The translations under genes were made by a program, and so were the position numbers. 41,808 bases of DNA from an uncultured Clostridia bacterium (lineage in GTDB: Bacteria > Bacillota > Clostridia > Oscillospirales > Ruminococcaceae). The first letter of the stretch is position 1; each line of letters opens with the position of its first letter. Under the pieces are notes generated by a model. That model did no database searches and was not told the origin of the DNA. It saw only the letters and a program-made list of their open reading frames with translations. This document shows, one piece after another, positions 17,942 through 25,908 of this stretch. The stretch spans positions 1-41,808 of the forward strand of contig CAMNVW010000002.1 in assembly GCA_946563605.1 (NCBI GenBank), read 5' to 3'.

Positions 17942-18592
17942 ATGATAAAAATTTCTCCATCCATTCTTTCCGCAGATTTCTCCGACCTCGGTGCCGAAGC
18001 GCGCAAAATGCAGCAGGCAGGCGCGCCATGGCTTCACATCGACGTCATGGATGGTCACTTTGTCCCGAATATTTCGTTCGGCGCACCGGTCATGAAATGT
18101 ATCCGCAAGGATTTTGACGGCGTGTTCGACGTTCATCTGATGATCAGCGAGCCTCTGCGTTATATCGACAACTTTGTCAAAGCCGGCGCGGATATGATCA
18201 CCTTCCATCTGGAATCGGACAGCGACGCCAACGCCACCATCGATGCAATCCGTGCAAAGGGCGTCAAGGTCGGCATCTCTGTCAAACCAAAAACCCCTGC
18301 TGAAGCAGTCAAACCTTACCTCGACAAGGTGGACATGGTGCTGGTCATGACCGTTGAACCAGGCTTTGGCGGTCAGCGCTTTATGGCAGATATGATGCCG
18401 AAGGTCAGCCAGATCCGTGAGTGGATCAACGAAAGCGGCCGTGAGATCGACCTGCAGGTGGACGGCGGCGTCAACGCAGATACTGCAAAAGTGTGCATTG
18501 AAGCTGGCGCGAATGTTCTGGTTGCAGGCTCTTACTTGTTCTCCAAGGACGACTACGCCGCAGCAATCAAAACCCTGCTGCCAAACGACTAA
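17942..18592 (+). CDS. rpe: Ribulose-phosphate 3-epimerase
   Basis: KISPSILSADFSDLG, HIDVMDGHFVPNISFG, VMTVEPGFGGQRFM. Confidence 0.97.
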   Translation: MIKISPSILSADFSDLGAEARKMQQAGAPWLHIDVMDGHFVPNISFGAPVMKCIRKDFDGVFDVHLMISEPLRYIDNFVKAGADMITFHLESDSDANATIDAIRAKGVKVGISVKPKTPAEAVKPYLDKVDMVLVMTVEPGFGGQRFMADMMPKVSQIREWINESGREIDLQVDGGVNADTAKVCIEAGANVLVAGSYLFSKDDYAAAIKTLLPND

Positions 18593-19146
18593 TATTTAAA
18601 ATATTGTTCCAGCGTCTGTGCGGCGGTATCCTGAATGAGGCACTCTGCGTGCTCCTTGAGGATGCCGTCCGCAAGCGCGTCGTGCTGCGCCTTGCCGCCG
18701 TATTCGAGCAGCATCCCTTTCACCAGCGCACAGTCTTCTTTCAAGGGCGACAGTGACAGATAATATTTTTTCTCCCATTTATACAGGCTGTTTTTTCCCA
18801 GTCTGTTGCCAAAGCCGCGGTGCAGATGGATGCCGCTTTGAATCATTTCCTCGCTGCTGTCAAAACAGTAAACCTGTACAAGCTGCTGCGTCTGTGTTTC
18901 TTCGCCGTCTACTCGGGTCAAGGTGAACACCGCACCTTCCTGCGCGTCGGAAACCTCAATGAGAAAATCGCTGCCGGTCAGACACAGTCCCGTTTCCTTT
19001 GCCGCCCTCTGCAATAGACGGCACAAAATTTTGTGCGTCAGCGGGTCGGTACAATCCATCTGCTGCGGACAAAGCTCCAAGGCGGAGAGTTCCCCCTGGC
19101 TGAGGATAATTTCCACCGCGTTTTTGCCCGTTTTTTTAAATTTCAT
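18589..19146 (-). CDS. MecA-like adaptor protein
   Basis: KFKKTGKNAVEIILSQGELSAL..., LIEVSDAQEGAVFTLTR, Glu-rich linker, FDSSEEMI and KYYLSLSP as in MecA; 4-bp convergent overlap with rpe. Confidence 0.65.
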   Translation of the reverse strand: MKFKKTGKNAVEIILSQGELSALELCPQQMDCTDPLTHKILCRLLQRAAKETGLCLTGSDFLIEVSDAQEGAVFTLTRVDGEETQTQQLVQVYCFDSSEEMIQSGIHLHRGFGNRLGKNSLYKWEKKYYLSLSPLKEDCALVKGMLLEYGGKAQHDALADGILKEHAECLIQDTAAQTLEQYFKY

Positions 19147-19206
19147 CTTTGCATCCACCCTTTCCTGTGAATTTTGATTCCGATACTGAAAGGAGTTTTT
19201 TCCCGA

Positions 19207-20262
19207 ATGTCTTTTTTTCATTGGCTGACAACCGGTTCTTCAAACGGCATTTTGCTTGAGCAGGAAAAAGAGCCTGCACTCTCGAAGCCGTTTCTGCCGT
19301 TTTACAGCTCCGCTACCCTGCAAAGCGCCGGTTTTTCGCATGGGTATGACTTCACAAAGCCTTTGACCAAAGCACAGCTTTGCCAGATCGCGCGTCTTGC
19401 GAACATCATCGACGAACGAGACGGCAAGCCGCTTGCAGAAAAAATAGAAAACTGTCCGAAGCAGAAGATCTCGGTCGTCTGCGCGGATGCCATCGACGAT
19501 GAACCGTATGTTTCCAGCCAGATCAATCCGCTTCTGCACTGCCGCACTGAAATCGTGCAGGCTTTAAACTGGCTTGCAGATGCTTTTGAAGCCCAGACCC
19601 GTTTCATCGCCGTATATAAGAATATGTCGCCGCTGGATACAAAAATACCATCCGTCATCGAATCGGTCGAGGTTCGCTCTATGGAAGGCAGATATCCGAT
19701 GGAGATTCGCGCCTTCCAGTCGCTGGGTGAGGATACGCTGATTGTCGGCACTGCCGCTTTGCTGCATCTGCACCGCGCAGTCACACAAGGCAAGATACAG
19801 ACTACCTCCTTTATCACGGTGGCAGGCAACTGTATTTCCAATCCGCGCAACCTGGAAGTGACCATCGGCACCCCTGTTTCACATCTTTTGGACCGCTGCG
19901 GACTTTCCCGAAAGCCCTCCTACATCATCCAAGGCAGCGCGATGCACGGCATTACCGTCTCTGACCCCGACAAAACCTCGGTGCGCGCCGACACGCGCTC
20001 GATTCTTGCCTTCCATGTAGATCATCAGGAACAGCTTTACAGCTGTATCGGCTGCGGCCGCTGCATCGAAGCCTGTCCTGCTGCGCTCAACCCCCGCAAA
20101 TTATACCGCTGCGTCACCACCAATCACGGTGAGCAGGCGATTGCGCTTGGGCTGTTTCACTGCATCGGCTGTTCGACCTGCAGCTACATCTGCCCCTCCC
20201 GACTGGATCTGTCTCATATCATCACCCTTGGAAAGCAGAAATTTTCCAAGGATAAAAATTAG
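19207..20262 (+). CDS. RnfC-like subunit lacking the canonical FMN/NADH glycine-rich loop
   Basis: ITVAGNCISNPRNLEVTIGTPVSHLL (SLBB-like), CIGCGRCIEACPAALNPRKLY and CIGCSTCSYICPSRLDLSHII; AGGAG upstream of ATG 19207. Confidence 0.8.
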   Translation: MSFFHWLTTGSSNGILLEQEKEPALSKPFLPFYSSATLQSAGFSHGYDFTKPLTKAQLCQIARLANIIDERDGKPLAEKIENCPKQKISVVCADAIDDEPYVSSQINPLLHCRTEIVQALNWLADAFEAQTRFIAVYKNMSPLDTKIPSVIESVEVRSMEGRYPMEIRAFQSLGEDTLIVGTAALLHLHRAVTQGKIQTTSFITVAGNCISNPRNLEVTIGTPVSHLLDRCGLSRKPSYIIQGSAMHGITVSDPDKTSVRADTRSILAFHVDHQEQLYSCIGCGRCIEACPAALNPRKLYRCVTTNHGEQAIALGLFHCIGCSTCSYICPSRLDLSHIITLGKQKFSKDKN

Positions 20263-20292
20263 CCTTTCCGTTTTGAAAGGAGCGTTATACTT

Positions 20293-21309
20293 TTGAATCC
20301 ATCTATCCATCATGCACCCTATATCCGACATCCTAATTCAAGCCGGACAATCATGAGCGATACGTTCATTGCGCTTGTTCCCTTGTACTTCATGTCCTAT
20401 TTTTACTATGGTTCGCGCGTCATTTTGGTTGGCGCAGTTTCTATTCTGACCTGTCTGCTGACCGACTGGCTTTGCAGTTATCTTTTGTACCGCAGAATCA
20501 ACCTGCGCGACATCAGCGCCGCCGTCACCGGCAGCATCATCTCGATGCTGGTTCCGCCGTCAGTGGAACTTTATGTGGTCGTCGGCGCATCGCTGTTTGC
20601 GATTCTCGTCGCGAAAGCGCCTTTTGGCGGAACCGGACACAATATCTTTAATCCTGCTGCCGCAGGACTTGCCTTTGCCACCATCTGCTGGAACAGCCAG
20701 ATGTTCCGTTACACAGCGCCTTTGCAGCATCTGCCCATCAACCTGAACGAAACAGTGACCTTTTTGCAGAGACCTACCGCGACCCTCAAGCTCGGCGGCG
20801 TTCCAAGCTTAAATATGACCGAGCTTCTGCTTGGAAAATTTCCGGGGCCGATCGGTTCCACTTACACTTTGATCCTTTTCGCCTGCCTGATCTACCTGAT
20901 TACACGCCGCGCGGTAAAATGGTACCTCCCTGCAAGCTATATTGCCGCTGTTTCCGTTGTCTCGGCGCTTCACCGTTCTTTCGGCGTCGGCCCATTGGAA
21001 TCCATCTTAAATGAACTGTTCTCCGGCTCGCTGTTTTTCATCGCCGTTTATATCCTGAACGACCCTGTCACAACGCCAAAATACCGCGTTGCGAGGGTCG
21101 TGTATGGCTTTTGCGCCGGTGTGCTGACCATGCTTTACCGGTATGTCAGCCCGTTTGAGCTGAGCGCAGTCTTTGCGATTCTGTCGATGAATGCGCTGAC
21201 TCCTGCCATCGACTGCCTGTGCGAATGGATCTTCTGGCGGGAAAATCCCTCTGCTGCAAACCCTGCAACATCAGATTCTGATGCGGTAAAAGGAGGTCAA
21301 TCACAATGA
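20293..21309 (+). CDS. RnfD/NqrB-like membrane subunit
   Basis: GGTGHNIFNPAAAGLA, GGVPSLNMTELLLGKFPGPIGSTYTLIL, NDPVTTPKYRVARVVYGFCAGVLTMLYR, SMNALTPAID; TTG start after GGAG. Confidence 0.85.
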   Translation: MNPSIHHAPYIRHPNSSRTIMSDTFIALVPLYFMSYFYYGSRVILVGAVSILTCLLTDWLCSYLLYRRINLRDISAAVTGSIISMLVPPSVELYVVVGASLFAILVAKAPFGGTGHNIFNPAAAGLAFATICWNSQMFRYTAPLQHLPINLNETVTFLQRPTATLKLGGVPSLNMTELLLGKFPGPIGSTYTLILFACLIYLITRRAVKWYLPASYIAAVSVVSALHRSFGVGPLESILNELFSGSLFFIAVYILNDPVTTPKYRVARVVYGFCAGVLTMLYRYVSPFELSAVFAILSMNALTPAIDCLCEWIFWRENPSAANPATSDSDAVKGGQSQ

Positions 21310-21992
21310 AACTTGCCTTCGCTCGCAAATACAGACGGTTTTTGCGCAAGACCAGCGGTATCTTTTATCAGAATCCTATTTTAACACTGGGACTTGCACT
21401 GCCCTTTGCAGTCGTTCCCTCCTATGGTTTAACCGGCGTTGCTGCCGTTTCGCTTGCAATGCTTGTGTGCTTTGTACCGACGGTATGGATCGCTTCCCTG
21501 CTCGGATGCAAGCTCGATAGGCATTGGCGCGCGGTGTTATATCCGCTCATTTCCTGCCTGCTGCTGATCCCTGCGAAGAGTCTGGTTGCGATGATCTCCC
21601 CTTCTATTTTTGACACCCTGGGCGTTTATTTTTCACTCGTCTGCGTCAACTCCCTTTTGATTTACGCAGTCGAAAAGGTGCAGCTGCAAAAGCCGGTGAA
21701 GTCGCTTGTGTTCGCGTTAAAGCACTGGCTTGGCGCAACGCTGGTGGTTTTGCTGTGCGGCATCATCCGAGAACTGCTTGCAAACGGTTCCCTTTGGGGT
21801 GTGGTGCTGTTTAAAAACACCCCAAAATTGCCCATCGTGCAGATGGCTTTGGGCGGATTTTTCCTGCTTGGATTTTTAGCCGCGTTTTTCCGCTTCATTC
21901 ACCGGTCGATTCTTGCTTTCACTTTAAAACATGAAGCCGCGGCAGAGCATCAGGAACCCTCTTCTAAGAAACGAGGTGAAACCCTTCGATGA
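21306..21992 (+). CDS. RnfE/NqrD-like membrane subunit, divergent
   Basis: NPILTLGLALPFAVV, VNSLLIYAVEK and IIRELLANGSLWG align with RnfE NxxL..GLCPLLAV, TNCIVVGRAEA and LREIIGNGTLF; ATGA overlap with rnfD-like gene. Confidence 0.75.
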   Translation: MKLAFARKYRRFLRKTSGIFYQNPILTLGLALPFAVVPSYGLTGVAAVSLAMLVCFVPTVWIASLLGCKLDRHWRAVLYPLISCLLLIPAKSLVAMISPSIFDTLGVYFSLVCVNSLLIYAVEKVQLQKPVKSLVFALKHWLGATLVVLLCGIIRELLANGSLWGVVLFKNTPKLPIVQMALGGFFLLGFLAAFFRFIHRSILAFTLKHEAAAEHQEPSSKKRGETLR

Positions 21993-22585
21993 TTTTATTA
22001 TCCGAACTCTTTTCTGCATTTTTGACTGCGCTGTTTTTGGAAAACCTGCTGTTTGCCCGTGCGTTTGACATTCCCGGGCTGTACCAAAAACACGCGCCAA
22101 GTCAAATCCTAAAAATCGGCGCGATCCTGACCGGTATTGTCACCGTTTCGGCGGTTCCTGCCTATTTCTTCAACAAGCTGCTCAAAGAACACGCCAGCCT
22201 TTCCGCTTTTTCCACGCTCGGTTTTTTGTGTATCAACTGTATTGTTTTCCTCTGTTTTTACTATGCGCTGGATCATTTCTTCCCTGCCTTTTTTGAATCG
22301 GTCAAAAAAAGCCTGCCGTTTTACGGCGTCAACTGCGTCACATTAGGTACGCTTCTCGTCACCGCACGCATGAGCGTCAGCGCAAAATTGATTACCTTCC
22401 TCGGTTACAGCTTTGGCTCCGGCGTCGGCTTTACCCTTGCGTTGCTGATCATCTGGTCGATTCGCCAGCCGCTTTCCATGTCCCGTATTCCAAAGGTGTT
22501 CCGCGGACTTCCCATCACTTTCATCTACCTCGGAATCGTTTCCCTTGCCCTGTTTGGTCTGCTTGGGAACCAGCTTCCTGCTTAA
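21989..22585 (+). CDS. RnfA/NqrE-like membrane subunit, divergent
   Basis: LTALFLENLLFARAFDIPGLYQK, YGVNCVTLGTLLV, VFRGLPITFIYLGIVSLALFGL; ATGA overlap with rnfE-like gene. Confidence 0.75.
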   Translation: MILLSELFSAFLTALFLENLLFARAFDIPGLYQKHAPSQILKIGAILTGIVTVSAVPAYFFNKLLKEHASLSAFSTLGFLCINCIVFLCFYYALDHFFPAFFESVKKSLPFYGVNCVTLGTLLVTARMSVSAKLITFLGYSFGSGVGFTLALLIIWSIRQPLSMSRIPKVFRGLPITFIYLGIVSLALFGLLGNQLPA

Positions 22586-22618: not shown

Positions 22619-23845
22619 ATGGCAAAACCGTATAAAATCAAACGTCATAAAAGCATCTACCGCCGTTCACGAGGGAGCATCCTCCTGCGCGTGCTCACCA
22701 TTACCGCCGCCGCTGCCGTTTTGTTTGGTATTGGCTGGGCTTTGTACGCGCCTGTCAGCGAGTGGATTCAACAGCGGCAGAATACACCTCAGGAGGAAGA
22801 ATTAACCCCCGGTCTTTCTAATGAAGAAAGCCTTGTTCCTGGGGAGTCGGAACAGGTTGAACCACCGCCTGCAGCGGATTCCTCCGCAGGGCAATCCAAA
22901 CAGACTGCTGACACCGCAAAAATGACGGCTTATCTGCCCGTTGAAACGGTAACGGATGCACAGCTCTTTGCCGCGGCGTTGGATTCCGCAAAGGCTGCCG
23001 GCTATGACAGCATCATGTTCGACCTCAAGGACATCGGCGGTGCAGTGCATTATCCTATCTCCTACAATGCTCTGGCTGATGAACGTGTCACCTCTGAAAA
23101 GACCGTGGATCTGCCGGCAATCGCCGCACAGATCAAGGACGCCGGACTGATTCCTGTTGCGTCTATTTACACCTTCCGCGACAATATCTACCCTTCCGCA
23201 GACAAGCACGCTGCCACCCGATACCGCAATTCTGACTTTTTGTGGATGGACAACGATCCAGAAAAGGGCGGCAAACCATGGATCAATCCATTCTCGCAGT
23301 CCGGTCAAGATTACATCAAAAAGATTGTTGATGATGCCTGCGATGCCGGATTTGAAATGATTGTCCTCCAAGGGCTGCAATTTCCAGAGGGTTACTCGCT
23401 GGATATGATCGACTATGGTGAACACGACACCGATAACAAAAATGAATTTTTGCGGCAATATCTCAGTCAAATGACCGTATACGCCGCTGAAAAAGGCGTT
23501 GAGCTGACAGCTCTCTTCCCTGCATCCAGTATGTTGGGCGGCAACAGCGGAATGTACTTCGGTGATACCGCTTCGATTGCAGGCGATTGCATCGCTGTTG
23601 ATTTCCGGCTGCGTGTGTTTGGAACCGGATTGCAGACCGACCTTGTTTCCATTCCTTCGCCTTCCGCCGACCCATACAACACCGTCAAAACTGCCGGTGC
23701 GGCTGTCCGAGAGAAGCTCAAGGACACACAGGTGATTGCTGTTCTTGACGGTGAAGCTTCCGGTGAGGATGTACTTTCCTCCCTGCTTCAGGCTGCCGCC
23801 GACAATCAGCTCGAACGCTGTATCATTGTATCGCCGACCCTATAA
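22619..23845 (+). CDS. Membrane-anchored putative glycoside hydrolase (DUF4015-like TIM barrel)
   Basis: N-terminal TM anchor; MFDLKDIGGAVHYPIS, AGLIPVASIYTFRDNIY, WMDNDPEKGGKPWINPFSQSGQDYI. Confidence 0.75.
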   Translation: MAKPYKIKRHKSIYRRSRGSILLRVLTITAAAAVLFGIGWALYAPVSEWIQQRQNTPQEEELTPGLSNEESLVPGESEQVEPPPAADSSAGQSKQTADTAKMTAYLPVETVTDAQLFAAALDSAKAAGYDSIMFDLKDIGGAVHYPISYNALADERVTSEKTVDLPAIAAQIKDAGLIPVASIYTFRDNIYPSADKHAATRYRNSDFLWMDNDPEKGGKPWINPFSQSGQDYIKKIVDDACDAGFEMIVLQGLQFPEGYSLDMIDYGEHDTDNKNEFLRQYLSQMTVYAAEKGVELTALFPASSMLGGNSGMYFGDTASIAGDCIAVDFRLRVFGTGLQTDLVSIPSPSADPYNTVKTAGAAVREKLKDTQVIAVLDGEASGEDVLSSLLQAAADNQLERCIIVSPTL

Positions 23846-23860
23846 CTCCAATCAAAACGC

Positions 23861-23893
23861 AAAGCGGCTAAAGGAAAATCCTTTAGCCGCTTT
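23861..23893. terminator. Intrinsic terminator after the Rnf-like operon
   Basis: AAAGCGGCTAAAGGA-AAA-TCCTTTAGCCGCTTT. Confidence 0.85.
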
Positions 23894-23997
23894 CCTTATG
23901 CAAAAGGTGCAGTCAGCTGCCCGCGCCTGACACTGTTATCCTATGCTCCTTTTTTGTTTTCTGTTCGCTTGTCCATTTTGGGGGAAAATCTAAAATA

Positions 23998-25615: not shown

Positions 25616-25644
25616 TTGACAGTTTGTGTTCACTCAGATATAAT
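25616..25644 (+). promoter_or_regulatory. Promoter of rplJ-rplL
   Basis: TTGACA - 17 nt - TATAAT. Confidence 0.85.
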
Positions 25645-25651
25645 AATAAAG

Positions 25652-25800
25652 CTGTCATATTCCAAAGACAGCAGGTGCAAATGCAAACAAGCATTGCTTA
25701 AAAGTAGCCTGCCGAGGAAACGATGATAAAGCATATGATTATGACTTTACATCCGCTCTTTTCCCTCGGTGATCCCACTGAGAGAAGGGAGCTTTTTTAA
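25652..25800 (+). ncRNA. Ribosomal protein L10 leader-like autoregulatory region with terminator
   Basis: Structured leader between promoter and rplJ ending in GCTCTTTTCCCTC...GAGAGAAGGGAGC-TTTTTT; position and content match the L10_leader family; covariance search not run. Confidence 0.7.
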
Positions 25801-25908
25801 GTTTTCGGGTTTTCCGAGAAGGTGTACCTTCTTGGGGCGGCGATTTGCATCGAATCCGCGCTGTGAACAATGTGTTCACGGCAAACAACTTTCAGGAGGT
25901 GAACTGAT

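Follow-up and report, generated by a model that had tools for sequence, protein, structure and literature searches.

The 41,808-nucleotide stretch analysed here (the window; positions 1 to 41,808 of contig CAMNVW010000002.1, assembly GCA_946563605.1, from an uncultured Clostridia bacterium of the Ruminococcaceae) carries four tightly packed genes resembling rnfC, rnfD, rnfE and rnfA, followed by a gene for a protein of the DUF4015 family. As judged from the sequences, purifying selection maintains an RnfC-like protein with two predicted [4Fe-4S] motifs (vC), a membrane core of RnfD-, RnfE- and RnfA-like proteins (vD, vE and vA) and the adjoining membrane-anchored DUF4015 protein, in a set that is almost certainly not an Rnf pump. 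Our preferred reading, to which we give a probability of roughly 45%, is that of an ancient Rnf paralogue turned into a redox-poised switch, or transporter, that serves an enzyme at the cell surface. The components of this variant unit are the following:

19207-20262, forward strand: vC, RnfC-like, with an ATG start at 19207 and two [4Fe-4S] motifs
20293-21309, forward strand: vD, RnfD/NqrB-like membrane protein, with a TTG start
21306-21992, forward strand: vE, RnfE-like membrane protein, with an ATGA overlap with vD at 21306
21989-22585, forward strand: vA, RnfA-like membrane protein, with an ATGA overlap with vE at 21989
22619-23845, forward strand: glycosidase-like protein of the DUF4015 family (PF13200, matched at 1.5e-20), a conserved fifth member
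about 23856-23895, forward strand: terminator read by eye, a strong stem-loop with a T-run that closes the five-gene unit

Coordinates and Pfam matches agree with the first-pass annotation of this DNA in its reading of four intact, packed C-, D-, E- and A-like open reading frames with ATGA overlaps. The profile search that it had proposed places PF03116 on vD at 1.4e-77, with no other Pfam domain, PF02508 on vE (8e-23) and vA (6e-24), and the Fe-S domain Fer4 together with SLBB on vC, where Complex1_51K appeared only below threshold. The glycosidase-like next gene and the terminator were also correctly seen, but the gene is not an unrelated neighbour, as it belongs to the unit. All four proteins missed the NCBIfam cut-offs for RnfC, RnfD, RnfE and RnfA (146, 193, 44 and 67 bits, with 246, 207, 213 and 229 required), and by this yardstick they are relatives of Rnf, not members. 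Their closest solved structures are RnfC, RnfD, RnfE and RnfA of C. tetanomorphum, A. woodii and A. vinelandii, with NqrD and NqrE also among the structure-database matches of vE and vA.

A first group of losses concerns whole subunits. The absence of RnfB and RnfG, on which the first-pass annotation had built its case, extends well beyond the window: neither gene adjoins the variant here or occurs in any of the orthologous C-D-E-A loci examined, and a separate canonical cluster was found, as rnfDGEAB on another contig of the same genome (C187, cut before C) and as a complete rnfCDGEAB elsewhere in a sister genome of the same genus (G146). This rules out a rearranged ordinary Rnf. Exactly one RnfB per genome scored above the cut-off in 11 genomes, always at the canonical locus, and the single flavin mononucleotide (FMN)-binding domain (FMN_bind) of the own genome sits at the canonical rnf, with likewise one each in G146, G133 and G118. 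The variant is without an RnfB of its own anywhere in the checked genomes, and without an RnfG of its own in these four. A reduced paralogue with a different function, as first proposed, comes out of these searches well supported. Its reduction had been recognised in the loss of B and G, but not in the ligand losses inside the kept subunits, the addition of DUF4015 or the frequent loss of vC. As for the canonical cluster of the own genome (L005), its contig is cut at both ends, with rnfC missing and rnfB partial. ApbE (PF02424), which a flavinylated RnfG or RnfD would need, was not found in this 87% complete assembly, and both its absence and the contig breaks are probably assembly gaps.

A second group of losses affects cofactor ligands, which we counted in about 80 orthologous loci, mostly of the host's own family, aligned together with canonical proteins. 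In the own-family set both [2Fe-2S] cysteines of vE are gone (0/78 and 0/78; P33 and S116 in the window protein), and vA has lost the first one throughout (0/78; P29 in the window) and keeps the second in 46 of 78 sequences (C116 in the window); the canonical proteins of the same alignment have all four. Outside this set, L224 and L226, both from a related family, retain one E cysteine each out of the four cysteines needed. The FMN threonine of RnfD is found in 27/27 canonical proteins versus 1/86 variant ones (R160 in the window), and in 3 of 126 in a wider set. None of 70 vC sequences has the GLGGAxFPT loop of RnfC for FMN and nicotinamide adenine dinucleotide (NADH), which is replaced by DExDG with an invariant E and a near-invariant D, in an alignment with only three canonical RnfC sequences plus the solved RnfC structures. 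The own-family vC is also without the N-terminal barrel of RnfC. Published work establishes the four cysteines of A/E and the threonine of RnfD as ligands (PMC9588780, PMC11889175). With B, G, the complete A/E [2Fe-2S] set, the FMN threonine of D and the FMN/NADH loop of C all missing, the alignments show the predicted trans-membrane electron path to be gone. Because these ligands, B and G are missing, the variant should be incapable of passing electrons from ferredoxin through the membrane and back to NAD+ along the U-shaped route ferredoxin-B-AE-G-D-C-NAD+. The two loci with a retained E cysteine (genomes G372 and G355) are vC-less, and their vE ends in a long acidic/proline-rich C-terminal tail, with one GxCP cysteine left.

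Other sites have been kept, or even gained. All eight Fe-S cysteines of vC are present in 70/70 sequences, and residues N120 and D257 of vD align with N124 and D248 of C. tetanomorphum, the RnfD asparagine and aspartate identified as riboflavin ligands (PMC9588780, PMC11889175). Moreover, vD has newly conserved residues, C198 (in helix VI, where C. tetanomorphum has Gly194) and P258. Loci with vC keep N120 in 87/88 cases, D/E257 in 86/88 and C198 in 86/88, versus 21/38, 31/38 and 21/38 for loci without detected vC. Of the 29 most conserved vD columns, those of N120 and C198 rank with the ones that relax most after vC loss, with fold-core glycines nearly untouched. A PHIR-type N-terminal motif of vD follows the same division (81/88 with vC vs 0/38 without), and in A. 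woodii the N- and C-terminal loops of RnfD bind RnfC (PMC11889175). From this co-variation of the vD tail and riboflavin pocket with vC we infer that vC and vD very likely form a physical complex, and we lean towards a riboflavin held by vD and electronically linked to the Fe-S centres of vC.

In 77 of about 86 loci the gene for the DUF4015 protein comes immediately 3' of vA and in the same orientation; contig ends account for several exceptions. Among near-complete genomes it occurs in 52/54 with the core and in 6/16 without it. The protein has a basic cytosolic tail, one predicted transmembrane helix (19-54) and an extracytoplasmic glycosidase-type domain resembling a triose-phosphate isomerase (TIM) barrel. 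Its structural model (predicted local distance difference test score, pLDDT, 86) likewise has one long transmembrane helix and a TIM-barrel-like domain, with 4s1a, a hypothetical protein related to it in sequence, and Cwp19 as best matches. In C. difficile, Cwp19 acts on peptidoglycan as a lytic transglycosylase and has a GHL10 domain (PMC6016235), and DUF4015 is also found fused to YkyA/PdcF-type domains, which are cofactors of cell-wall deacetylases (PMC12700454). These parallels make a role in envelope glycans plausible for DUF4015, which is likely to be a functional partner of the core.

Under the preferred reading, vC would dock on the N-terminal tail of vD, as RnfC does on RnfD, and would let electrons pass between a carrier in the cytosol, probably ferredoxin, and a riboflavin at N120/D257 of vD, near C198. 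Such a short cytoplasmic chain would set the state of the core of D, E and A, and this core would act as a redox-poised switch or transporter and not as a pump. The DUF4015 protein, anchored by a single helix like RnfG, would fill the place of RnfG outside and act on a cell-wall or surface glycan, and the vC-less lineages would retain a redox-independent version. It is possible, though doubtful, that the Rnf/Nqr superfamily has here its first member without a pumping or respiratory role, a redox-poised riboflavin switch in which cytosolic Fe-S centres set a membrane gate or transporter controlling a cell-wall enzyme.

Several points weigh against this proposal. The D tree shows only about two changes in the presence of vC, so that the co-variation has few independent losses behind it and p-values computed from the raw counts are too favourable. 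On this tree N120 changes 8 times and C198 9 times, with 3 and 1 changes for two control sites, and an independent-pairs test of the co-variation found only one or two pairs, too few for significance. The vD model has the RnfD/NqrB fold, and its likeness to urea transporters is weak (TM-scores 0.33-0.43, E >0.04). Riboflavin binding, the ferredoxin donor and the transported substrate are all putative. DUF4015 resembles Cwp19 only as TIM barrels in general resemble one another (10% identity), and it persists beside rpe, the upstream ribulose-phosphate 3-epimerase gene, in some core-less genomes, which speaks against a strict dependence on the core.

An unlikely but serious alternative is that D-E-A is a plain solute or ion transporter or channel, reverted to something like an ammonium/urea transporter, with vC as a dispensable regulatory add-on. 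RnfD and NqrB are related to these transporters (PMC12174285), vC was not detected in 38/126 sampled loci, electron cofactors have been lost, and urea transporters are the first plausible fold matches of vD outside Rnf/Nqr. The vD model (pLDDT 85), however, matches RnfD and NqrB with E-values of 5e-16 to 4e-10 (7zc6_D, 8e-15) and urea transporters only weakly; the riboflavin pocket and all eight Fe-S cysteines are strictly kept alongside vC, and the loci have no substrate-linked neighbour but DUF4015. Quite improbable is a second alternative, in which D-E-A, with vC or not, would be a scaffold that anchors, folds or positions DUF4015 and does no transport or redox work. The very tight linkage of the DUF4015 gene and the RnfG-like single helix of its product would fit such a role, but DUF4015 outlives the core in four genomes (G027, G097, G005 and G003), and a scaffold would explain neither the Fe-S cysteines nor the polar residues conserved within D. 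That the variant borrows the canonical RnfB and RnfG to work as an alternative Rnf under some condition is barely credible: a canonical Rnf with one RnfB does exist in every checked genome, but with the A/E cysteines, the D threonine and the C loop gone the borrowed subunits would be left without electron-transfer partners.

Between the window and Negativibacillus massiliensis the ratio of non-synonymous to synonymous substitution rates (dN/dS) is about 0.09 for C, 0.15 for D, 0.19 for E, 0.16 for A and 0.18 for DUF4015, values that are rough because dS is near saturation, and the same comparison gave no internal stops in the variant genes. Identities of D, E and A between these two species are 88, 95 and 90% for the canonical proteins versus 69, 64 and 62% for the variant ones, which is constrained yet faster-evolving than the canonical set.

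RnfD-like genes occur in 188/199 genomes of the family, usually two in each, and a variant-type A, assigned by score and position, in 54/70 near-complete ones. Named hosts include, besides N. massiliensis, Anaerotruncus colihominis, A. massiliensis, Marasmitruncus, Ca. Soleaferrea, Hydrogenoanaerobacterium and Angelakisella. A vE profile reaches at least 150 bits only in the host family and in one or two other, related families of that order; in the rest of the class the best loci reach 143 bits and are canonical in layout. Outside the order of the host, no C-D-E-A set turned up. A tree built from 76 RnfD-like proteins places the variant as one clade on one side of a single branch with a long stem (Shimodaira-Hasegawa-like approximate likelihood ratio test, SH-aLRT, 100), which indicates one origin, by duplication or early transfer, and not repeated decay. 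Across the family the locus reads rpe, mecA (reverse), [C], D, E, A, DUF4015, which in the window adds two upstream genes:

17942-18592, forward strand: rpe, an upstream syntenic anchor
18589-19221, reverse strand: MecA-like gene, divergent from the operon, a conserved neighbour and candidate member only

Within this one genomic slot there is a loss series from C-D-E-A to D-E-A, to D and to none. In addition to the four core-less genomes named above, where DUF4015 still lies beside rpe, G109 has a degenerate D there. Two loci from a neighbouring family of the order (L223 and L227) encode a vC with the DExDG loop plus an RnfC-like N-terminal barrel, as read from the sequence, which appears to be an intermediate step. 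The faster divergence of the variant between sister species and its stepwise gene loss could suggest a functionless, decaying remnant of a duplicated rnf operon, but purifying selection (dN/dS <0.2) argues against pseudogene decay, and together with the absence of internal stops, the breadth of distribution, the conserved operon and the new invariant residues (C198 and P258 in D, DExDG in C) it led us to reject this highly improbable reading, in line with the initial argument from intact reading frames.

Among known systems, Rnf itself (rnfCDGEAB; structures 7zc6 of C. tetanomorphum, 9eri of A. woodii and 8ahx of A. vinelandii) has homologous C, D, E and A in the same order, and shares with the variant the RnfD fold, the RnfC Fe-S cysteines, the RnfD riboflavin residues and the N-terminal PHIR motif. 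The variant differs in the subunits, ligands and loop that it has lost, in the absence of the barrel from its own-family vC and in the added DUF4015. The Na+-translocating NADH:quinone oxidoreductase (Na+-NQR) sets the precedent of an Rnf paralogue with a different task; it is minus RnfB, and its RnfC homologue NqrA has lost its cofactors (PMC12174285, PMC4014512). Unlike the variant, it retains NqrC, both covalent FMNs and the [2Fe-2S] centre and has gained NqrF, whereas the variant retains Fe-S motifs in C; no conserved gene of the NqrF or NqrC kind was found in variant loci. Two-gene NQR/RNF-like systems have fewer subunits and an RnfD-like protein without the FMN threonine (Meheust et al. 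2021, PMC8238504; PMC10979944), but they keep an RnfG-like flavinylated subunit and an RnfD fused to an NAD-binding domain (PF00175), and the variant has neither. Both precedents for an altered Rnf thus keep an RnfG/NqrC-type flavoprotein, which the variant does not. Ammonium/urea transporters are distant relatives of the RnfD fold, while the variant always encodes E and A partners in the studied loci.

In Faecalibacterium duncaniae A2-165, an 'rnfDEA' (CG447_09840-830) has been named as a second putative rnf operon, for a proton gradient (PMC10781979). Lying beside a full rnfCDGEAB, and judged from the published gene names, it is probably a vC-less member of the variant family. No paper describing C-D-E-A or D-E-A as a distinct Rnf type was found in the literature searched, which held few subscription journals. 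Two mentions of 'rnfCDEA' were rejected as instances of the variant, both being rnfCDEAB.

The variant genes are sufficiently rnf-like to be annotated as rnf across many gut genomes, and their ligand losses make inferences from 'rnfDEA' to a proton gradient unsafe (PMC10781979). Moreover, the family offers a natural dissection of Rnf, in which members with vC and riboflavin and members without vC separate the needs of D-E-A from those of electron transfer, and it bears on whether ion transport falls to RnfD or to RnfA/E. An unexpected tie between a scaffold for electron transfer and enzymes of cell-surface glycans is hinted at as well. If the riboflavin-switch reading is true, a redox switch so far read as an ordinary Rnf would be widespread in human and animal gut Ruminococcaceae and Oscillospiraceae.

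Some minor observations complete the picture. The start of the MecA-like gene overlaps the divergent start of vC; this gene evolves very fast (43% identity between sister species vs 88% for the adjoining rpe), and its position is constant across much of the family despite this divergence. Two strongly reduced genomes of 0.7-0.9 Mb (loci L064 in G088 and L071 in G068) have a solitary variant-like RnfD, with no recognisable C, E, A or DUF4015 alongside. Genome G031 has, apart from its variant cluster, a third kind of Rnf locus (L075, contig C27), in which RnfC-RnfD occur with an RnfG-like match and 'SSSTPL' stands at the FMN site. Rfam gave no riboswitch near the operon, its sole match in the window being a ribosomal protein L10 leader (RF00557, 54.5 bits) at 25644-25807 on the forward strand, 5' of rplJ/rplL-like open reading frames.

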